A DNA stretch of 64,000 bases from Planctomycetota bacterium (GTDB taxonomy: Bacteria > Planctomycetota > Phycisphaerae > UBA1845). The notes beneath the pieces were generated by a model. The model was not told the DNA's origin. It searched no databases and saw only the letters and a list, made by a program, of their open reading frames with translations. The position numbers and the translations under genes are program-made. Positions 26,917-54,518 of this stretch are shown here, one piece after another. The stretch is taken from assembly GCA_030616775.1 (NCBI GenBank), contig JAUWWQ010000012.1:1-64000 (forward strand), read 5' to 3'. Each line of letters starts with the position of its first letter. The first letter of the stretch is position 1.

Positions 26917-27225
26917 ATGATCGCCGCCATCGACGCACGAAGGGAGGCACTTGAGGCGCTGTGTCGGCAGCACCGCGTCCGGCGGCTGGAGGTGTTCGGC
27001 TCCGCTGCGGATGGAACGTTTGACCCCCAACGCAGTGATCTGGATTTTCTGGTGGAATACCTCCCGCTCTCGCCAGGCGAGTACTACGAAGCGTATTTCG
27101 GTCTGCTGGAGTCTCTTGAGGCGCTTTTCGAGCGACGTGTTGATCTTGTTGACGTGACGTGTTTAAGGAATCCCTACTTCATTCAGGGAGTCAATGAAAG
27201 CCGGTCGGTAGTGTATGAAGCATGA
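26917..27225 (+). CDS. MntA-like nucleotidyltransferase antitoxin
   Basis: The protein is a minimal nucleotidyltransferase with EVFGSAADGTFDPQRSDLDF near residues 25-44, carrying the GS and DxD catalytic motif. MntA antitoxins inactivate the HepT toxin by adding AMP groups to it. The stop overlaps the start of the HepT gene (27215-27225), the usual arrangement of this pair. The length (102 aa) is normal. The pair lies inside an acyl-CoA catabolic run, so it was probably inserted there. Confidence 0.88.
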   Translation: MIAAIDARREALEALCRQHRVRRLEVFGSAADGTFDPQRSDLDFLVEYLPLSPGEYYEAYFGLLESLEALFERRVDLVDVTCLRNPYFIQGVNESRSVVYEA

Positions 27226-27556
27226 CCCGAGAAAGTATCTGAGTGATATGCTGGACGCATCCCGGTTCCTGCTCGATGCCACAGCGGGAAAAACGATGCA
27301 GGACTACGAGACGGATCGAATATTTCGTTCTGCCGTCGAGCGCGAGCTGCAAAACATCGGTGAGGCGCTGAGGCAGCTGACGTCGCACGATCCGAACACA
27401 GCGGCGAGAATAACCGAGCATGAGCGCATCATCCGTTTTCGTCACGCGCTGGTTCACGGGTACGATAGTGTCAGACCGGAACTCGTATGGGACGTTATTG
27501 CCAACAAGCTATCGACACTCCGCGACGAACTGGAGGCGATGTTGCAGGAGCCATGA
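27215..27556 (+). CDS. HepT-like HEPN ribonuclease toxin (DUF86)
   Basis: A single HEPN domain of 113 aa. The catalytic motif RX4HXY is visible as RHALVHGY near residues 76-83, and the helix RAVERELQNIGEAL-like segment (AVERELQNIGEALRQL) matches the family. HEPN toxins of this type cleave RNA and are neutralised by AMPylation from the adjacent MntA. It overlaps the antitoxin gene by 11 bases. A broken C-terminal copy of a second HepT follows at 27625-27714. Confidence 0.88.
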   Translation: MKHDPRKYLSDMLDASRFLLDATAGKTMQDYETDRIFRSAVERELQNIGEALRQLTSHDPNTAARITEHERIIRFRHALVHGYDSVRPELVWDVIANKLSTLRDELEAMLQEP

Positions 27557-28698: not shown

Positions 28699-29440
28699 GA
28701 CTCAAGTACGCGTAGAGATTGACGGGCCTCAGGCGGCTATTACGTTCTTCACGGAAGAGGCGCTCAACGTGCTCTCGCCGGACGTATTGCACAGTTTCGG
28801 AGCAGCAGTTGCCAAGGTGAGAAAAGACCCCAAAGTCCGCACGACGGTGATCAAGGCGGAGGGAAAAGTCTTCCTGGCCGGCGCCGACGTCAAGGTGATG
28901 GCCAATTACGGTGCCGAGGATGCCCGGGAATACGGATCGGACGGGCAAGGTGTACTGAATGACCTGGCCGCACTGCCCTCGATTACTGTCGCGGCGATCA
29001 ATGGAGCGGCGCTGGGCGGAGGTCTGGAACTGGTGCTGGCGTGCGACTTCAGGATCGCGGTCAAGTCCGCGAAGTTGGGTCTGCCGGAGACCTCACTCGG
29101 CCTGATACCCGGCTGGGGCGGGATTCCGCGCTTGACCAAGCTGGTGGGTCCGTCGCGGGCCAAAAGGCTGTACTTGAGTGCCATGCCGGTGTCGGCAGAT
29201 GACGGCGCCACCTTTGGCCTGGTCGATGAGGTGGTCAATTCCGTCGAGGATCTTACGCCTCGTGTGGCGGCGTTCTGCAAGACATTCAAGCGGGCGTCGC
29301 CCGAGGCAGTGGCGCTCGCTAAACGAGCCTCGCGCGACATGGACGATCTGACGGCGTTTGCCGATTGCTTCAGGACAAAAGACTTTCGCGAGGGCATCGC
29401 CGCATTTTTGGAGAAGCGCCCGGCTTCGTGGATGGAGTGA
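28691..29440 (+). CDS. Enoyl-CoA hydratase/isomerase (crotonase family)
   Basis: Crotonase motifs are visible: the oxyanion-hole loop FLAGADVKVM, then NGAALGGGLELVLACDFRIA with the first catalytic Glu, and LGLPETSLGLIPGWGGIPRL with the second. Both acid residues needed for water addition to enoyl-CoA are present, so hydratase activity is likely. The ATG at 28691 overlaps the end of the dehydrogenase gene; the longer frame upstream is a shadow of that gene. It has 249 residues, normal for a single-domain hydratase. Confidence 0.92.
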   Translation: MSKTQVRVEIDGPQAAITFFTEEALNVLSPDVLHSFGAAVAKVRKDPKVRTTVIKAEGKVFLAGADVKVMANYGAEDAREYGSDGQGVLNDLAALPSITVAAINGAALGGGLELVLACDFRIAVKSAKLGLPETSLGLIPGWGGIPRLTKLVGPSRAKRLYLSAMPVSADDGATFGLVDEVVNSVEDLTPRVAAFCKTFKRASPEAVALAKRASRDMDDLTAFADCFRTKDFREGIAAFLEKRPASWME

Positions 29441-29448
29441 CTTCGGCT

Positions 29449-31053
29449 ATGAGCGTACGACCGTCCGCCGATCCTTCCAGCGCGCCTGAGGCTGGTGCGG
29501 ATGCCAAGCCGTGGGTCGGCCCGGAAGACCTGGGCGCGTTCGACCCTGCCGAGGCCCTGGGCGAGCCGGGTCAGTTCCCCTTTACCCGCGGGCCTCATCG
29601 TACCATGTATCAGGAGCGACTCTGGACCATGCGGCAGTTCGCCGGGTTCGGGTCAGCCGACGACACCAACAAGCGATTCAAATACCTGCTCGAACACGGG
29701 CAGACGGGACTGAGCACCGCGTTCGATCTGCCCACGCTCATGGGCCGTGATAGCGACGACCATCTGTCACTTGGCGAGGTGGGGCGATGTGGCGTGGCGA
29801 TCTCGTCGCTGGCGGACATGCGCCGGTTGTTCGACGGGATTGACCTGGGCAATGTCAGTACGAGCATGACGATCAACGGTCCCGCGGCAATCCTGCTGGC
29901 ATTCTATGTGGCGGTCGGCCAGGAGCAGGGCGTCCCGCTGGGCAAGCTTCGCGGCACCCTGCAAAACGACATTCTCAAGGAATTCCATGCTCAAAACGAG
30001 TACGTCTTCCCGCCCGAGCCGAGCGTCAAGCTGGTCGTCGATACCATCGAGTATTGCACCGAACACACGCCGCAGTGGAACACGGTCAGCATCAGCGGTT
30101 ACCACATCCGTGAGGCCGGGGCGACGGCCGCGGAGGAGCTGGCGTTTACACTGGCGGATGGTATAGCCTACGTACAAGCGTCAATCGAGCGCGGCTTGGT
30201 CATCGACGCTTTCGCACCTCGCCTGAGCTTCTTTTTCGACGTGCACAACGATTTTTTCGAGGAGATCGCCAAGCTGCGGGCTTCCCGGCGGATCTGGGCG
30301 CATGTGATGCGCGACCGCTTCGGAGTGAAAAGTGAACGCAGCTTATTGCTGCGCATGCACTGCCAGACGGCCGGTGTGACTCTGACCGAGCAGCAGCCGA
30401 CCAACAACATCATGCGCGTGGCCTATCAGGCGTTGGCGGGCGTGCTGGGCGGCACACAGTCCCTTCACACCAACAGCATGGACGAAACGCTTGCTCTGCC
30501 GAGTGCCCAGGCCGCCAAGATCGCCCTGCGAACGCAGCAGATTCTCGCCTGCGAAAGCAACGTCACCCAGACCGTCGACCCGCTCGGCGGCAGCTACTTC
30601 ATCGAGAAGCTGACCAACGAGATCGAGGCCAAGGCCTATGCCATTATCGATCAAATCGACGCGATGGGCGGAGTGCTGAGAGCGATTGACCGGGGCTTTT
30701 TCCGTCGTGCCATTGCCGAGTCAGCTCATGCCCAGCAGCGTGCCCTGGAGGACGGAGAATCGAAAGTCGTCGGCGTGACTGACTTCGTCGAAGAGGGACC
30801 GCCGGGTATCGACATTCTCCAGGTTAACCAGAAGACCGAAGACGCTCAGGTTGCCGGTTTGAAGAAGCTGAAGGCCTCACGTAACCAGGCACGTCACGCC
30901 GCGGCACTGGAACGTTTGCGCGAAGATGCAAAGAAGGACATGAATCTCATGCCCGCTCTGATCGAAGGTGCCAAGGCCGACGCCACCGTTGGCGAGATGA
31001 TGGCCACAATGAAATCCGTCTTCGGCAGCTACGACGGCGGCCCGGAGTGGTAG
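29449..31053 (+). CDS. icmA: Acyl-CoA mutase large subunit, isobutyryl-CoA mutase type
   Basis: The TIM-barrel substrate domain of the B12-dependent acyl-CoA mutases is complete (534 aa) with TMYQERLWTMRQFAGF, FDLPTLMGRDSDDHLSLGEV, SISGYHIREAGATAAEEL and FAPRLSFFFDVHNDFFEE. The cobalamin domain is not attached. Two residues tell the substrate apart in this family: methylmalonyl-CoA mutase has Tyr89 and Arg207, isobutyryl-CoA mutase has Phe80 and Gln198. Here the matching residues are Phe64 and Gln182, with the same 118-residue spacing, so it should interconvert isobutyryl-CoA and butyryl-CoA. The ATG at 29449 starts eight bases after the hydratase stop. The B12-domain partner is encoded at 33938, across a 2.9-kb interruption. 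Confidence 0.88.
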   Translation: MSVRPSADPSSAPEAGADAKPWVGPEDLGAFDPAEALGEPGQFPFTRGPHRTMYQERLWTMRQFAGFGSADDTNKRFKYLLEHGQTGLSTAFDLPTLMGRDSDDHLSLGEVGRCGVAISSLADMRRLFDGIDLGNVSTSMTINGPAAILLAFYVAVGQEQGVPLGKLRGTLQNDILKEFHAQNEYVFPPEPSVKLVVDTIEYCTEHTPQWNTVSISGYHIREAGATAAEELAFTLADGIAYVQASIERGLVIDAFAPRLSFFFDVHNDFFEEIAKLRASRRIWAHVMRDRFGVKSERSLLLRMHCQTAGVTLTEQQPTNNIMRVAYQALAGVLGGTQSLHTNSMDETLALPSAQAAKIALRTQQILACESNVTQTVDPLGGSYFIEKLTNEIEAKAYAIIDQIDAMGGVLRAIDRGFFRRAIAESAHAQQRALEDGESKVVGVTDFVEEGPPGIDILQVNQKTEDAQVAGLKKLKASRNQARHAAALERLREDAKKDMNLMPALIEGAKADATVGEMMATMKSVFGSYDGGPEW

Positions 31054-31272
31054 GCGCTCCTAAGGTCAGGAGCGAAGTCCTCCCCAGGGGCGACAACGAG
31101 CAGCAGCTCCTGCAAGGCCTGCTCAGCGAGCGTGACAAGGTCGAAGCGGACATGAAGCACGGGGCGCCGTTTTCGTGCGGTATGTGCCGAGAATCAATGA
31201 TACGCGCCGCAGCGAGCTGGCCTTACGATGCCGATTCGGAGGCGACAGCCCTTCCAATCGTGAAAGGAATCG

Positions 31273-32472
31273 ATGATGCTTGACTACTTCCGAGCGGACA
31301 ATTTCAAGTCGCTTGTCAATGTTAGCTTTGAGCCAACCGGCCTGAATCTCCTCGTTGGGAGCAACAACTCCGGCAAGACCAACCTTTGCCATGCGATGCA
31401 ATTCCTTTCGTTGACAACTAGGAAATCTCTTAACGAGGCTTCGCAGTGTACGGGCGAGCCATGGAGTCTTGCCAATGTTTATCTGGACAAAGCTACGATT
31501 GACCTTTCTCTGCGCTGCACGCTCACATGGGAAAAGAAGGCCTACAAGTTTGATTATGAACTGAGCTTGACAGCGCCGCGCGCGGCAAGAGAGCGCGGGC
31601 AAAGTATCCCTCTCGGCGTGCAACACGAGGTGCTTCGGGTAACGGGAGGGGCATTCAACGAAACCGTCCTCATGGAGAACGACGCTGGACAGGTCAAGTT
31701 GTTGCATGAGCGGGTTTTTCTGGGCGAGCAACAGGGGCAGGATAAGTATAAGACGACGACGGCCCCACCGGATCATACGATGTTGTTCCGCCTGTACGAC
31801 CTGGAAACCAACCAGCGTGCCAACCTGTTCAAGCGGTATCTCGGTAGCTGGCAGTACTTCAACTTTGATGCCTTGCGTTTGCGGCATACCGGTGCCCAAC
31901 CGATGAACATCTTGCTCAATTCGGACGGAGGAAACTTGGCATCAGTCATGTCCAATCTGAAGAGCTCCGAGGAACGCTTGTATCGCAAGATCGTGGATGC
32001 AGCGAAGACCTTGGAGCCAAAGCTTTACGCCATCAATTTTTTGTTGCCCGACACCGAGCATGTATACATGTTCTTCGAGGATGAGAAGGGCAAGCGATTC
32101 AGCGCAGCCAACATCTCGGACGGTACACTCCGCTACCTGGCACTTTGTACGCTGGTCATTTTGAACCGACACCTCAAAGCGAGGGAAGGTGCGCCGCTTG
32201 TCATGATCGAGGAGCCTGAGAACGGAATCTTCGTGGGTCATCTCAAGCCACTATTTGAGCGGATTGAACCGTCCGGCAAGGAGGGACAATACTTGTTCAC
32301 ATCTCACGCTCCGTACTTCATCGACCTGTTTGATGCATGCCTCGACGGCGTGTGGGTCGCGCGTAGCGAGCGAACCCATACCACAATCGAGCGTCCACCA
32401 AGGAGCAAGATCGAGAAACGGCTCGGTGAGTATTCGCTCGGAGAGATGCACTTTAGAGGTTTACTGCAATGA
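31273..32472 (+). CDS. AAA ATPase (AAA_21/OLD-like), 399 aa
   Basis: The start MMLDYFRADNFKSLVNVSFE and Walker A LLVGSNNSGKTNL (residues about 27-39) are those of RecF/OLD-like ABC-type ATPases. The end has Walker B APLVMIEEPENG and the His switch LFTSHAPYFIDLF. No nuclease domain is fused. The following gene overlaps its stop by four bases and encodes a TOPRIM-like partner, a pairing seen in phage-defence systems such as AbiL-type and related ATPase/TOPRIM modules. The pair lies between the two halves of the mutase locus. AAAGGA precedes the ATG at 31273. Confidence 0.85.
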   Translation: MMLDYFRADNFKSLVNVSFEPTGLNLLVGSNNSGKTNLCHAMQFLSLTTRKSLNEASQCTGEPWSLANVYLDKATIDLSLRCTLTWEKKAYKFDYELSLTAPRAARERGQSIPLGVQHEVLRVTGGAFNETVLMENDAGQVKLLHERVFLGEQQGQDKYKTTTAPPDHTMLFRLYDLETNQRANLFKRYLGSWQYFNFDALRLRHTGAQPMNILLNSDGGNLASVMSNLKSSEERLYRKIVDAAKTLEPKLYAINFLLPDTEHVYMFFEDEKGKRFSAANISDGTLRYLALCTLVILNRHLKAREGAPLVMIEEPENGIFVGHLKPLFERIEPSGKEGQYLFTSHAPYFIDLFDACLDGVWVARSERTHTTIERPPRSKIEKRLGEYSLGEMHFRGLLQ

Positions 32473-33059
32473 GGATCGGCTACGCCGTTCAAGGCTCGAC
32501 CGATCGGGCTTTCCTCCGTGGGCTAAAGGAACGATGGTGCGCCAACGCTGAGATGATAGAGGGCGCGTTTCGCGGTTCCACCGGACTGAGCCTTCGGCGT
32601 GAATTGGCGAGAATATGCGACGATCTCTTCTGGCAGAAGGCATGTGACGTCATCGTGTTCTTGTCTGACGCCGATGTGGCTGACTGGCGAACGGTGCAAA
32701 GGCGCGAAGTCGAGAAGCTCCCTGACGAGATTCGCCCTTTCGCAGTGTATGGCATGGCTGACCGCAACACTGAATGCTGGTTGTGCGCCGATCCGCACTA
32801 CATCTCCGAGAAGACTGAACGCGCATTCGAGGACTTTACTGCGGACGACCCAAAGGGCGCATTCCAGTCAGCGATGCGCATTTCGCGAGATGATAAGCGG
32901 GAATCGGAGATCGCAGCACTCGTTCGGGACGCTTACGTCGGGGTGCTGCGGCGCTGGCTGGAGACGAGTAGATCGTTTGAGGATTTCTATGACCAACTCT
33001 GGACGGTCAGCAGACAGCGAGAATGCGACATAGACAATCTTCGTGAAAGTGGCTCCTGA
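32469..33059 (+). CDS. TOPRIM-like (DUF4276/RloB-type) partner protein, 196 aa
   Basis: The pattern is that of small TOPRIM-like proteins paired with AAA ATPases: an N-terminal strand YAVQGSTDRAFLRGL, the acidic strand VIVFLSDADVADW, and DRNTECWLCAD near residue 98 matching the conserved iExWlLaD signature. The usual first acidic residue (VEG) is Gln here (VQG), so metal-dependent nuclease activity may be altered. The ATG lies in the last codons of the ATPase gene (ATGA overlap). The pair is a candidate defence or abortive-infection module; the mechanism is unproven. Confidence 0.72.
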   Translation: MRIGYAVQGSTDRAFLRGLKERWCANAEMIEGAFRGSTGLSLRRELARICDDLFWQKACDVIVFLSDADVADWRTVQRREVEKLPDEIRPFAVYGMADRNTECWLCADPHYISEKTERAFEDFTADDPKGAFQSAMRISRDDKRESEIAALVRDAYVGVLRRWLETSRSFEDFYDQLWTVSRQRECDIDNLRESGS

Positions 33060-33094
33060 TTGCGCGAACAAGGCTGGCGGTAATCGACGAGGCG

Positions 33095-33292
33095 ATGACC
33101 GCGCGAGACACCATGGCGGATGTACTGATCTATTGGCGGGACCACGCGGCCAACCGGGCCTACCAGTTCTCCGGGGATCGTGCGTACAAGGGACACCGGA
33201 TTGCCAAGCGCCTGACTGGGCTGGATGCGCAGTGCGGTTTGGCAATAACGCACCCGGATTTGACGCCCAGGGAGCCCCGGAGGGGCGTGTGA
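33095..33292 (+). CDS. Doubtful small ORF, 65 aa
   Basis: This frame (MTARDTMADVLIYWRDHAAN...) has reasonable amino-acid composition but no recognised family and no clear ribosome binding site, and its end runs into a palindrome (33274-33286). It could be a short third gene of the ATPase/TOPRIM cassette or chance coding. Confidence 0.25.
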   Translation: MTARDTMADVLIYWRDHAANRAYQFSGDRAYKGHRIAKRLTGLDAQCGLAITHPDLTPREPRRGV

Positions 33293-33298
33293 CAATAG

Positions 33299-33355
33299 CC
33301 CAGCGATTCATCGCTGGGATAAAGTCGCCAGCCTACTGCCGAGTCCCGTAGGGAC
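33299..33355. repeat. REP hairpins, left flank of the Y1 transposase
   Basis: CCCAGCGA-ttca-TCGCTGGG at 33299-33318 is followed by GTCCC-gta-GGGAC at 33343-33355. The same two hairpins occur in mirror order on the other side of the transposase gene. Confidence 0.85.
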
Positions 33356-33393
33356 GGTTGAATCGCGGGCGTTTTGACCCGCGATGGCAAACG

Positions 33394-33846
33394 ATGCCAC
33401 ATTCCTACTCGAACTGCCTGATTCATTACATCTTCAGCACGAAGGATCGGCGCAAGATGATCTTCCCGGAAATCCACGAACGTTTGTGGGCCTACCTCGG
33501 CGGCATCGCCCGGGAGAATGGGGTGAAGGCTTTGGCGGTTGGGGGGACCGACGATCACGTGCATATGTTGGCCGCGCTACCCTCGCCGCTGTCGGTTGCT
33601 AAGGCCATCCAGCTCATTAAAGGCGGGTCGTCGAAATGGTTGCACGACACGTTTCCTGCGATGAGGACCTTTGCCTGGCAGGAAGGATATGGAGCGTTCA
33701 GCATCAGCGTGTCTGGCATCGCCGATACCGTAGCGTACATTCTCGGGCAAGAGCGGCATCATCGAACGCGGACGTTCGAGCAGGAGTTCGTTGCGTTTCT
33801 CAAGAAGCACGACATCGGCTATGATGAACGTTACGTGTTTGGCTGA
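33394..33846 (+). CDS. Y1 transposase, REP-associated (RAYT/IS200-like)
   Basis: A 150-residue HUH transposase: IHYIFSTKDRRKMI at the start, the metal-binding HUH motif in GGTDDHVHMLAALP, and a candidate nucleophile Tyr in ADTVAYILGQERHHRT followed by the ending typical of RAYTs (FEQEFVAFLKKHDIGYDERY). RAYTs nick and move REP palindromes. It is framed by inverted pairs of REP hairpins (33299-33355 and 33856-33933), so it is a complete REP-transposase unit rather than an insertion sequence with simple ends. The ATG at 33394 starts the family N-terminus; earlier in-frame starts cross a palindrome. Confidence 0.88.
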   Translation: MPHSYSNCLIHYIFSTKDRRKMIFPEIHERLWAYLGGIARENGVKALAVGGTDDHVHMLAALPSPLSVAKAIQLIKGGSSKWLHDTFPAMRTFAWQEGYGAFSISVSGIADTVAYILGQERHHRTRTFEQEFVAFLKKHDIGYDERYVFG

Positions 33847-33855
33847 CGTTCAGCC

Positions 33856-33933
33856 GTCCCTACGGGACTGGTGTGTTTACTGAGTGGATACCCAGCGTTG
33901 AAACGCTGGGCTATCGTCGGCCATCCCTACGGG
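33856..33933. repeat. REP hairpins, right flank of the Y1 transposase
   Basis: GTCCC-tac-GGGAC at 33856-33868 and CCCAGCGTT-ga-AACGCTGGG at 33891-33910 mirror the left flank, and a further ccctacggg lies at 33925-33933. The last repeat ends only a few bases before the mutase small-subunit start. Confidence 0.85.
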
Positions 33934-33937
33934 ACTC

Positions 33938-35116
33938 TTGGTGTTGCGACTCAATTATGATGTCGTTACGGAACGATTAGTAGCGCGACTGGAGACGGAA
34001 GTGGTAGTCAAAGCGGTGGAGCAGAGTCCCCGTGTGTTGCTCGCCAAGATCGGGCTGGATGGTCATGATCGTGGCGTCAAGGTTCTGGCACGGTCGTTCC
34101 GGGACGCCGGGATCGAGGTGATCTACACCGGTTTGTGGCAGACCTGTGAGGCGACCATGCACGCGGCCTTGCAGGAGGACGTCGATGTGGTCGGGGTGAG
34201 CCTCCTGTCGGCCGCCCACATGACCGTGATGCCCCAGATTCTGAGCATTCGCAAGGAGCTCGGCATCGAGCAGATGCCGGTGGTGCTCGGCGGGATCGTT
34301 CCGGTGGCCGACTATCCCAAGTTGAAGGAAATGGGTATCGCGGCGGTCTTCAACCCCGGTTCATTTCTCGATAAGATCATCGAAACCATGCAGGAGCTGG
34401 CCTTGCACCGAGAGACTGTAGATTCCGACGAGATCCGTGCCGGGTATGCTCGCGGGGATACGCGGGCCCTGGCAAAGCTGATCACCGCCGTTCAGCACGG
34501 TGAAGATCTGAACGGCTGGACCCCGCCGCCCGGTCAGGCCACCATCATCGGGATAACCGGCGCCCCGGGTGTGGGGAAGAGTTCGTTTATCGGCCGGCTC
34601 GGCAAGCGGCTTAGAAATCGTGGCAAGAAAGTGGCCGTCGTAGCCATCGATCCGAGCAGCCCGGTCACCGGCGGGGCGCTGCTGGGTGACCGGTTGCGGA
34701 TGATGACCGGCGAGCCCGACGTGAACTTTTTCATCCGCAGCCTGTCGTCCGGGGACGTGCAGGGTGGTCTCGCCCCGCACTGCCGCGAAGTTGTCAATAT
34801 TCTCGACGGATTCGGGTTTGACTACGTCCTTGTGGAGACGGTGGGTGCCGGGCAGGCGGACGTGGCCATCCGCGAACTGACTGAGCACATTCTCCTGCTG
34901 CTCATGCCGGAAAGCGGCGACTCGATCCAGTTCTCCAAAGCCGGGGTGACGGAGATCGCCCGCGGTTTCGTACTTAATAAATGCGATCTTTCCGGTGCGG
35001 ATGCCACCGAGGCCCAACTTCGCAGCGCCGTGGGCGACAACCGCCCGTTGTGGAGAGTCAGCAGCGTCCGCGACGAAGGAATCGACGCCGTCGCAGATTG
35101 GGTGACATCACTTTAG
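33938..35116 (+). CDS. Cobalamin-binding mutase domain fused to MeaB/ArgK-type G protein
   Basis: Residues about 30-160 form the B12-binding domain with the cobalt-ligand motif LAKIGLDGHDRGVKVL (DxHxxG) and VVLGGIVP. Residues about 170-392 are a MeaB-type GTPase chaperone with P-loop GITGAPGVGKSSFIGRL, VVAIDPSSPVTGGALLGDR, VETVGAGQAD and the base motif NKCD. In IcmF these two domains are fused ahead of the mutase barrel; here the barrel is the separate gene at 29449. The product should supply cobalamin to it and protect it. The start is uncertain: TTG at 33938 or GTG at 33941 lie against a REP, and a GTG near 34003 also has an upstream purine-rich site. Confidence 0.88.
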   Translation: MVLRLNYDVVTERLVARLETEVVVKAVEQSPRVLLAKIGLDGHDRGVKVLARSFRDAGIEVIYTGLWQTCEATMHAALQEDVDVVGVSLLSAAHMTVMPQILSIRKELGIEQMPVVLGGIVPVADYPKLKEMGIAAVFNPGSFLDKIIETMQELALHRETVDSDEIRAGYARGDTRALAKLITAVQHGEDLNGWTPPPGQATIIGITGAPGVGKSSFIGRLGKRLRNRGKKVAVVAIDPSSPVTGGALLGDRLRMMTGEPDVNFFIRSLSSGDVQGGLAPHCREVVNILDGFGFDYVLVETVGAGQADVAIRELTEHILLLLMPESGDSIQFSKAGVTEIARGFVLNKCDLSGADATEAQLRSAVGDNRPLWRVSSVRDEGIDAVADWVTSL

Positions 35117-35719: not shown

Positions 35720-35905
35720 TTGCGCGCGACTTTTGGCGGCGGCGTAGGCGCGCCTTGGGTTCCGGCCGTCAACAACGCCGGCACCTGGGGCCGCTGGGCA
35801 TTCATCGAAATCACCGACCCGTGGGACGCGAAGAACACGATTCGCACGTTGCTTGCCACGGCACCAGATACCGCGAAAGGCGATCCACATGCTAACGCGA
35901 CTTAG
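35720..35905 (+). pseudogene. C-terminal stub of a restriction-helicase-like protein
   Basis: The frame ending at 35905 reads PWVPAVNNAGTWGRWAFIEI and then TDPWDAKNTIRTLL. This is the typical ending of large type III/BPTD_3080-like restriction helicases (pattern VPAVNN.G.WGRWAF.EI.DPW). The rest of the protein, normally many hundreds of residues, is gone and replaced by palindromes and MITE copies. Its stop overlaps the ATPase start at 35889 by 17 bases, so the operon coupling to the ATPase has survived the deletion. Confidence 0.65.
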
Positions 35906-37628
35906 ACTGTGCAACTTCAAACGATTCGACCGTGCCGACATCGAACTTGGCAAGTCGGTTGTGTTCATCGGTCCGAACAATTCCGGGAAGACAAGCGCGA
36001 TGCAAGCGCTCGCTCTTTGGGATGTGGGGCTCCGTCTCTGGAGCGAGAAGCGCGGTGTGAAAGGATCGCACGAGAAGCACCGAGGTGTTCCGATTAACCG
36101 GCGCGACCTAATCGCGATCCCCACGCCCGCCACGAACCTGCTCTGGCGGGGCACGGACGTCCGTAAGTCACAGGTGATCGACGGAAAACAGCAACCGCGG
36201 AACATTCGGATCGACGTAACCGTCGAAGGCATCACTAATGGCAGGGCATGGTCCTGCGGCTTGGAGTTTGATTACAGCAACGAAGAGTCCTTCGGTTGCC
36301 GCCCCCTTCGCCTACCGGGGCAAGAGGATGTACTCGTCCGCAAAGCGCAGTTCTCGGAAATCCCAAACGAGGCGACGGCCCTGAAGATCGCCTATCTACC
36401 TCCCATGTCGGGGCTGGCCGACCGGGAGTTCATCAAGCAGCAAGGTGAGATAGGCTTCCTGATCGGGCAGGGGCAGACGGCCCAGATTCTTCGGAATCTC
36501 TGCCATCAGTTATTCCAGAAGGACGACGCGATGGCATGGAAGAACGTGACGGCACAGATCAAGTCGTTGTTCGGCGCGAGACTCCTCGATCCGGAATACA
36601 TCCCAGAGCGAAGCGAAATCGTCATGCGATACGAAGAGGATGACGCGCACCTCGACCTGTCCAGCGCCGGTCGCGGCTTGCAGCAAACGCTCCTCCTGCT
36701 CGCTTACCTGTACGCCAATCCCGACACCGTGCTTTTGCTGGACGAGCCCGATGCCCACCTGGAGACCGTGCGCCAACGCGAGATTTACAAACTGCTTTCT
36801 TCCATCTCCGACCAGCAGAACTCGCAAATCATCGCCGCCAGCCATTCCGAGGTGGTGCTCAATGAAGCAGCGGGCAGCGGCAAGGTTGTTGCCTTCGTCG
36901 GGAAACCTCACGTGCTGAACGACAAGGGCAGTCAGGTTCTCAAAGCGCTCAACAGCATCGGGTGGGACCAATATTATCAGGCCGAAGCGACGGGGTGGGT
37001 CTTGTATCTTGAAGCGTCGAGCGACCTCGCGATTCTACAAGCGTTCGCCGAGACCCTTAAGCATCCCGCAGCGAAGTATCTGGAGCGCCCCTTCGTACAC
37101 TATGTCTCGAATCACCCACAAAAGGCTCGCGATCACTTCTTCGGCCTCCGCGAGGCCAAGGGTGATCTGCACGGCATTGCCATCTTCGACCGACTGGATA
37201 AGAAGCTCGTCACGGATAGCGACCTAGTGGAACTCATGTGGAGTCGTCGTGAGATTGAAAACTACTTCTGCGCAGAAGAGGTCCTCCTGGCCTGGTTGCG
37301 GCCGCACGATCAACCGGATGACCTTTTCGGTGACGCCGAGGCCCGGAAGCGCGAAGACGTAATGCGTGAAGCCATCGCCGAAGTGACGCGCCTACTTGAA
37401 ATCGATGAAGAGTCTCCGTGGTCAGACGACGTAAAGGCGACCGATGACGTTCTCGACCGCGTATTTCGGGTCTTCTTCAAGAAGCTGGAACTCCCTCTTA
37501 CGTTCCGAAAATCGGACTACCATGTCTTGGCGAAACTCGTTCACAAGGACAACCTCGATTCCGAAGTGACCGACAAGCTGGACGCTATTGTCGAAGTGGC
37601 GGACAGGGTGCAAGCGAGACCGGAATAG
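35889..37628 (+). CDS. OLD-like AAA ATPase with degenerate TOPRIM region, 579 aa
   Basis: The N-terminal half is an AAA_21 ATPase: MLTRLRLCNFKRFDRADIEL, Walker A VVFIGPNNSGKTSAM (about 25-39), SSAGRGLQQTLLLLAYL, Walker B DTVLLLDEPDAHLE and the His switch IIAASHSEVVLNEA. The C-terminal half has TOPRIM-like strands (WVLYLEASSDLAILQAF and GIAIFDRLDKK) and MWSRREIENYF as in OLD-family nucleases, but the Gly after the first Glu is Ala. The ATG at 35889 lies within the end of a restriction-helicase remnant. OLD proteins act as phage-exclusion nucleases; activity of this variant is open. It was probably the accessory ATPase of a restriction operon. Confidence 0.82.
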   Translation: MLTRLRLCNFKRFDRADIELGKSVVFIGPNNSGKTSAMQALALWDVGLRLWSEKRGVKGSHEKHRGVPINRRDLIAIPTPATNLLWRGTDVRKSQVIDGKQQPRNIRIDVTVEGITNGRAWSCGLEFDYSNEESFGCRPLRLPGQEDVLVRKAQFSEIPNEATALKIAYLPPMSGLADREFIKQQGEIGFLIGQGQTAQILRNLCHQLFQKDDAMAWKNVTAQIKSLFGARLLDPEYIPERSEIVMRYEEDDAHLDLSSAGRGLQQTLLLLAYLYANPDTVLLLDEPDAHLETVRQREIYKLLSSISDQQNSQIIAASHSEVVLNEAAGSGKVVAFVGKPHVLNDKGSQVLKALNSIGWDQYYQAEATGWVLYLEASSDLAILQAFAETLKHPAAKYLERPFVHYVSNHPQKARDHFFGLREAKGDLHGIAIFDRLDKKLVTDSDLVELMWSRREIENYFCAEEVLLAWLRPHDQPDDLFGDAEARKREDVMREAIAEVTRLLEIDEESPWSDDVKATDDVLDRVFRVFFKKLELPLTFRKSDYHVLAKLVHKDNLDSEVTDKLDAIVEVADRVQARPE

Positions 37629-53651: not shown

Positions 53652-54518
53652 TCATAGATTTCGTGGATATGGAGAGCTCAGAACAAGTCCCTCCTTCATC
53701 CAGCGCTGAACGACATAATCCATAAAGCCTTGCACGGGATTAGAACCACAGATGCGGGCAAGCTGTGCACCCACATTCGTGAGTAGAACATGCCCGATAG
53801 GGAGCTCATTATCCTGCTCCTGTTTGAATTCCATAATCATGGTGTATCCGTGATAATAGAGCGTGGTACGCTTAGCAAGGCGGCGCTGTACTAATCCAGA
53901 CAAGGGTTGAAAGCTCACTAATCCAATATCATCGAGGTGCGTAAGGTTCGGGAAAATGATACCGGCATTGTTGTAAATGCATGCTTCAACATCATATATC
54001 AGTGGTATCAGATGCCCCACATCCCAGGCGAAACAGCACAGTGCCGTGAAGAGGCGTGCGTCAGCCTTATCAAGAGATCCTAGAAAGTTGACTGTCCGCT
54101 TAGAGAAGGTTCCTGGGGCATTAGCCTCACCAGCGAGAACTTGGGACCAAAGTCTCTGCATCTCCCCATCAGAAACGATGCGGCATTTGTCGAAAAAGTT
54201 GGCGACCCAATCATTCTCCATTTCCTCCGGTTTAGAGGAATCCTCAAGTTGTGGGATAGCCTGTTCTGTTATCGTCTCAATGTTCTCTTGTTTGTTTGCT
54301 TCTTCAGCTATAAATCGTGTTAGGGCGCGACGTTGAAGATCTGTTACCTCAATTTGTGCTTGTGCCCTAATGATCTCAGCTTCGGCCTCGGCCTTGGCAA
54401 CACGTATGATCTGATATGGTTTGCAGTAACCACCTAGTGCATCCGAGATATTCTCAATCAGCACGGTCCCTGGTTTCGAGATATCGCCAAGGTTAACAAT
54501 GGAGCTAGCTTTGCTCAT
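53652..54518 (-). CDS. DUF2806 protein, 288 aa
   Basis: The layout matches DUF2806: an N-terminal region IVNLGDISKPGTVLIENISD, a long charged helix (AKAEAEAEIIRAQAQIEVTD), then EEMENDWVANFFDKCRIVSD and MQRLWSQVLAGEANAPGTFS with a C-terminal alpha/beta part. The biochemical function of the family is not known; members are often accessory genes. The DNA is more A+T-rich than its surroundings and lies between two copies of a 37-base sequence, so it looks acquired. The ATG at 54518 starts the conserved region. Confidence 0.8.
   Translation of the reverse strand: MSKASSIVNLGDISKPGTVLIENISDALGGYCKPYQIIRVAKAEAEAEIIRAQAQIEVTDLQRRALTRFIAEEANKQENIETITEQAIPQLEDSSKPEEMENDWVANFFDKCRIVSDGEMQRLWSQVLAGEANAPGTFSKRTVNFLGSLDKADARLFTALCCFAWDVGHLIPLIYDVEACIYNNAGIIFPNLTHLDDIGLVSFQPLSGLVQRRLAKRTTLYYHGYTMIMEFKQEQDNELPIGHVLLTNVGAQLARICGSNPVQGFMDYVVQRWMKEGLVLSSPYPRNL

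Follow-up and report, generated by a model that had tools for sequence, protein, structure and literature searches.

The usual places to look for antiphage genes are defence islands and mobile elements. In the 64,000-nucleotide stretch of planctomycete DNA analysed here (the window; positions 1 to 64,000 of contig JAUWWQ010000012.1), a gene for an ATPase and a gene for a small TOPRIM-like protein lie between genes of methylmalonyl-CoA metabolism, which raises the question of what such a pair is, where it came from, and what it might do there. Read from their sequences, the flanking genes are mutA, encoding the methylmalonyl-CoA mutase large subunit (29,365–31,053, with the true start probably near 29,449), and a gene for a B12-binding domain plus a MeaB GTPase, called mutB here (33,938–35,116); both are on the forward strand, as are the ATPase gene (31,273–32,472) and the partner gene (32,469–33,059) between them. 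As an earlier, sequence-only reading had stated, the two inner genes overlap by four bases (ATGA) and are unrelated to the metabolism around them; their G+C content is 53–57%, compared with 61% for mutA and mutB. The answer reached here, for which the chances are judged to be about even, is that the two genes form an ATPase/TOPRIM immune module of the HEC-01 kind, whose ancestor was embedded in an Hma-type defence operon and which reached the mutA-mutB gap together with a piece of an hmaB-like gene.

The first gene encodes an ABC/AAA_21-AAA_15 ATPase of 399 amino acids (P0001) with a Rad50/OLD/PtuA-type head, assigned to the HEC-01A kind from Pfam, PADLOC, and an AF2 model. Pfam AAA_21 is matched at 8.9e-18, and HEC-01A, with an E-value of 2.4e-38, is the best of all PADLOC models. 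The set of motifs is complete, comprising Walker A GSNNSGKT (residues 29–36), the signature ISDGT (281–285), Walker B with the catalytic Glu in VMIEEPEN, and the H-loop TSH (343–345). The AF2 model (pLDDT 88.9) matches Rad50 (Z 21.8), PtuA (Z 18.9), and the OLD protein of retron Eco8 (Z 18.5).

The second gene encodes a protein of 196 amino acids (P0002), with the N-terminus MRIGYAVQGSTD, to which the earlier reading had ascribed the small TOPRIM/DUF4276 pattern. The TOPRIM part of this description was borne out by structure prediction (pLDDT 90.2, pTM 0.89), since VIA-align places about 150–164 of the 196 residues on the TOPRIM domains of OLD (C-terminal, 6nk8; Z 8.4), GajA (6.8), and AriB (5.6). 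The Z values are modest, those of 8.4–8.7 being close to noise, with a hypothetical protein (2p62) in the top row. Because the OLD, GajA, and AriB rows are coherent and the motif spacing agrees with them, TOPRIM is nevertheless the clear reading of the predicted fold. A Foldseek search with the model returned no PDB match under 0.001, and a search of PDB sequences with the partner profile found nothing. The DUF4276 part is not supported at the curated cut-off, as Pfam assigns P0002 to no family and the gathering score of PF14103 (DUF4276) is not reached; the homologue L034 matches it weakly (1.9e-4, 22.1 bits versus a cut-off of 30.2). The HEC-01B model of PADLOC is marginal for P0002 (0.0073), with values of 1e-7 and 2.7e-7 for the homologues L039 and L034, and no AriB model matched P0002 in PADLOC at E-values up to 1. 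The match to the MADS (MAD3) model NF047739 of NCBIfam reaches 81 bits, for which the cut-off is 420.

The pairing is conserved in other genomes, with the ATPase gene directly upstream of the partner gene in all 28 close homologues, which come from several phyla; the genomes compared are mostly or all metagenome-assembled (MAGs), and the arrangements recur across independent assemblies. The nearest relatives are two orthologues from other genera of the same family, with partner identities of 74% (L005/L031) and 70% (L006/L032). The sister of these three pairs is L033 from a WOR-3 MAG (tree support 100/99), 54% identical to the window pair and located between hmaA (HmaA 1.3e-194) and a gene matching hmaB (HmaB 2.2e-62) in an Hma defence operon. 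HEC denotes an Hma-embedded candidate, and antiviral activity has been reported for several HECs, HEC-01 not being named among them (PMC12988326).

A second trace of such an operon is found just past the mutA stop codon, where nucleotide and protein-level matches indicate a C-terminal relic of an HmaB-like DUF1156 methylase (31,056–31,175, forward strand). A 134-base stretch starting 10 bases past the stop shares 77% nucleotide identity with a segment upstream of the nearest orthologue, that of G318, which sits at a site unrelated to mutA-mutB. At the protein level the relic corresponds to the C-terminus of a DUF1156 methylase (E 4.5e-9), an identity based on annotated plasmid matches and on C-terminal position: the plasmid matches are the last residues of DUF1156 proteins, one of which was checked and lies in a helicase-DUF1156-DUF499 operon. 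No PADLOC or NCBIfam model matched the relic alone. Homologues occur in 13 other planctomycete genomes, mostly at the ends of large open reading frames (ORFs), and no pair was found in the flanks examined beside its full-length DUF1156 homologues. On these sequence matches, the most likely history is that the pair left a defence operon for mutA-mutB, carrying part of an hmaB-like gene along; as hmaB follows the pair in L033 and the relic precedes it in the window, the donor operon would have been arranged differently. The identity of the pair as one of the HEC-01 kind, moved out of an Hma-like operon, is well supported, and the link to antiphage systems that the sequence-only reading had proposed is sustained by this kinship, the Hma-embedded sister pair, and the relic. 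Searches for the partner on plasmids, phages, and viral contigs gave no matches and thus lend no support to a phage or plasmid as the present vehicle of the pair.

What the sequence-only reading missed is the reuse of the gap by other cassettes, the occurrence of relatives of the pair in other core operons, and the attached relic of a defence gene. Orthologues of mutA are present in 46 of 51 family genomes, and mutB follows mutA directly, with the gap empty, in 24 related genomes of the family. In G306 and G297 the gap is occupied by an unrelated pair of ATPase and DUF4276 genes, which in G308 also follows mutA, without mutB behind; PF14103 is matched at 4.8e-18 (G306) and 2.2e-21 (G308), and the pairs of these three genomes form one clade. 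The gap of G295 (L095) contains a three-gene cassette (249 aa, 123 aa, and a PemK-like protein, 1.7e-11), with a truncated mutB behind it, and that of G315 a PIN-like ORF without a Pfam match. G000 and G295 share 94% identity in mutA, and their homology ends at the mutA stop codon and returns inside mutB. A second insert in the gap of the window is a Y1/IS200-like transposase ORF of the REP-associated type (33,358–33,846, forward strand; Pfam Y1_Tnp 6.1e-26); an ORF of this type is also found after mutA in G363. That of the window is flanked by inverted copies of one short sequence at about 33,272–33,357 and 33,846–33,940, about 72% alike and probably REP palindromes. The open stretch past the pair (33,060–33,287) belongs to no recognised family and faintly matches unannotated Sinorhizobium DNA (E 5e-3). 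A promoter scan at the pair revealed nothing above chance.

A second gap of the mut gene run, between the acyl-CoA and hydroxyacyl-CoA dehydrogenase genes, holds an MNT-HepT (nucleotidyltransferase/HEPN) pair (26,917–27,556, forward strand; Pfam NTP_transf_2 1e-10 and HepT-like 2.5e-17, PADLOC PDC-S09 2.5e-33), in a slot common to several relatives. G089 (L238) has an MNT-HepT pair from these families (35% and 34% identity to that of the window) between DUF1156 and a following DUF499-like ORF, recognised by eye only, in an Hma-like operon. Elsewhere in the window, 0.8 kb past mutB, an OLD-like single gene (35,886–37,628) encodes a third AAA_15/AAA_21 ATPase, which is TOPRIM-like in its C-terminal half (LEASSD, IFDRLD, RREIENYF) and is best matched in PADLOC by NsnB (2e-24), and a 288-aa protein at 53,652–54,518 shows a DUF2806-type likeness by eye.

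Among the loci examined, an apparent excess of embedding in core operons is seen, with neighbouring genes at the nuo, pur, suc, and pgk sites named from their sequences. The arrangement gap-pgk-[pair]-rpe characterises a monophyletic branch (100/99) of 13 genomes from two families, for some of which the stretch examined covers the pgk side only, while an Anaerolineales MAG (nuoE-[pair]-nuoF), an Ignavibacteriae MAG (purH-[pair]), and a planctomycete (ABC-[pair]-sucC) each provide a single case. The G301 copy is unembedded, its flanking genes pointing the other way. Such retention between pgk and rpe could also be expected if the pair were a domesticated host function, either a housekeeping regulator or a genome-maintenance factor given constant expression by the operon, and a precedent exists in Cran1, an archaeal OLD ATPase with an essential cell-cycle role and, apparently, no antiviral one (PMC12796447). 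The inheritance of the pgk-linked branch looks vertical, which fits a housekeeping role too and counts against a defence reading. This explanation is nonetheless considered unlikely. Occupancy is patchy within a genus, pgk and rpe being adjacent in G304 but separated by the pair in its sisters G359 and G360; the gap is empty in 42 genomes, including this congener of carriers. The window lineage, moreover, gained the pair recently, because the pair is missing from the mutA site of its congeners G294 and G295, and the neighbouring pathways vary among loci.

The sequence-only reading had also drawn attention to a Gln in place of the first catalytic Glu (VQG). The substitution is real, but it is not an isolated oddity: residue 8 is Gln in 23 of the 28 close homologues and Glu in five (L033, L034, L039, L045, and L002), and the state changes at least four times on the tree of ATPase plus partner. 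Gln8 occupies the position read as VEGSTD/VEGATD in L033 and L034, and D12, D67, and D69 (DxD), N100, and E102 are kept. The resulting spacing of Q8-x3-D12, D67-x-D69, and N100-x-E102 parallels E377-x3-D381, D431-x-D433, and S478-x-E480 of Thermus scotoductus OLD (PMC7049728), a mapping made by motif spacing rather than by superposed coordinates. DxD is present in every Gln form among these homologues; DxN occurs with Glu only (L033, L034), a possible charge trade between residue 8 and D69, although the association is weak (Fisher p 0.026, kinship ignored). If Glu, the state at motif I in other TOPRIM enzymes, were ancestral, about three losses (the window clade, a Latescibacterota-type clade, and the pgk-linked clade) and one return (L012/L045) would be implied; this polarity is insecure because the root falls on a very long branch. 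Since Gln is usual, DxD is always kept with it, and dN/dS is 0.07–0.14 for both genes, indicating purifying selection, the comparison favours an altered site kept by selection over a dead gene.

These residues bear on a toxin-antitoxin-like explanation, in which the TOPRIM protein would be the toxin and the ATPase its keeper, with release as in PARIS, where AriA sequesters AriB until a trigger appears (PMC12409363). The two-gene ATPase-TOPRIM architecture, the AriB-like fold match, and the presence of a toxin-type cassette in the same gap of G295 are consistent with it, but the Glu required in AriB is Gln in the window partner, which also has no AriB family match, and the explanation is regarded as improbable. 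That the module is a selfish passenger, persisting or spreading by hiding in indispensable operons with little host benefit, could account for its recurrence in core operons (mut, pgk-rpe, nuo, pur, suc) and Hma and for the relic as a sign of movement, but is very unlikely given that no mobility gene of its own or terminal repeats were recognised, the Y1 ORF is not conserved with the pair, and strong purifying selection on both genes suggests function.

The immune-module reading is supported by the HEC-01A score, the fold matches, the Hma-embedded L033, the relic, and the lower G+C content, while the marginal HEC-01B score, the empty plasmid, phage, and viral searches, and the lack of a Foldseek match in PDB weigh against a defence role, as does the pgk-linked branch. 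With a defence role suggested by descent, the pair is most likely an antiphage module in which the ATPase gates an attenuated or non-cutting TOPRIM protein. The pair would probably be transcribed with the propionate operon; the ATPase would dimerise around ATP, like Rad50, OLD, and PtuA heads, and hold the TOPRIM subunit. On sensing an infection signal, either a DNA end or a phage protein, it might expose the partner or load it onto nucleic acid and thereby stop either the invading DNA or the infected cell. The mode of action of the Gln form is a reasoned guess from the fold, the conservation of motifs, and mutants of other TOPRIM enzymes: TOP3B E9Q abolishes cleavage (PMC9363430), AriB E26A is inactive (PMC12409363), metal-A triple mutants of OLD are 12–15-fold weaker with nicking remaining (PMC7049728), and the TOPRIM domain is dispensable for the antiphage phenotype of YbjD (PMC13261556). 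With Gln8 beside retained D67/D69, metal-B D12, N100, and E102, the partner would more likely bind or nick than degrade, and the ATPase clamp may therefore do much of the work.

The locus is of interest as one in which a module apparently moved from a defence operon to a housekeeping operon, the fossil indicating the direction of travel, and in which the same gap is filled with other immune or toxin cassettes in related genomes. Should this prove a general pattern, searches based on genomic neighbourhood would overlook a class of immune genes. A broader proposal, possible though doubtful, is that core metabolic operons of Planctomycetota (Phycisphaerae), in gaps such as mutA-mutB and pgk-rpe, receive immune cassettes found elsewhere within Hma operons and so provide a diffuse, constantly expressed immunity away from defence islands, and that the TOPRIM subunit of one such module was converted more than once from a Glu cutter to a Gln non-cutter or nicker acting via the ATPase. 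The recurrent Glu/Gln change provides natural variants for the question, raised by YbjD, of whether TOPRIM cleavage is needed in ATPase/TOPRIM defence.

Among known systems, Septu and the retron PtuA share the ATPase fold (Z 18–19), whereas the Septu partner is the HNH protein PtuB rather than a TOPRIM-like protein. YbjD/OldB and Cran1 are OLD-type ATPase proteins too, and simple TOPRIM cleavage in defence does not account for their role, but each is a single fused protein in which the acidic residues are intact. OLD nucleases and GajA (classes 1–2) have the Rad50-like head, the OLD-type TOPRIM fold, and, by spacing, the active-site positions in common with the window pair; ATPase and TOPRIM are fused in one protein in OLD classes 1–3, as opposed to the separate, overlapping genes of the window, which additionally has Gln8 and Asn100 at the equivalents of E377 and S478 and no helicase gene. 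PARIS (AriA/AriB, OLD class 4) also separates the ABC ATPase and TOPRIM genes, but its ATPase subfamily differs, and the window partner lacks an AriB family match and the catalytic Glu. The closest likeness is to HEC-01 of PADLOC, with an adjacent AAA_21-type ATPase and small TOPRIM/DUF4276-like partner and with the Hma embedding seen in the sister L033, of which the window shows only the HmaB-like relic; the differences are the marginal match to HEC-01B models, the Gln at the metal-A Glu, and the metabolic-operon location.
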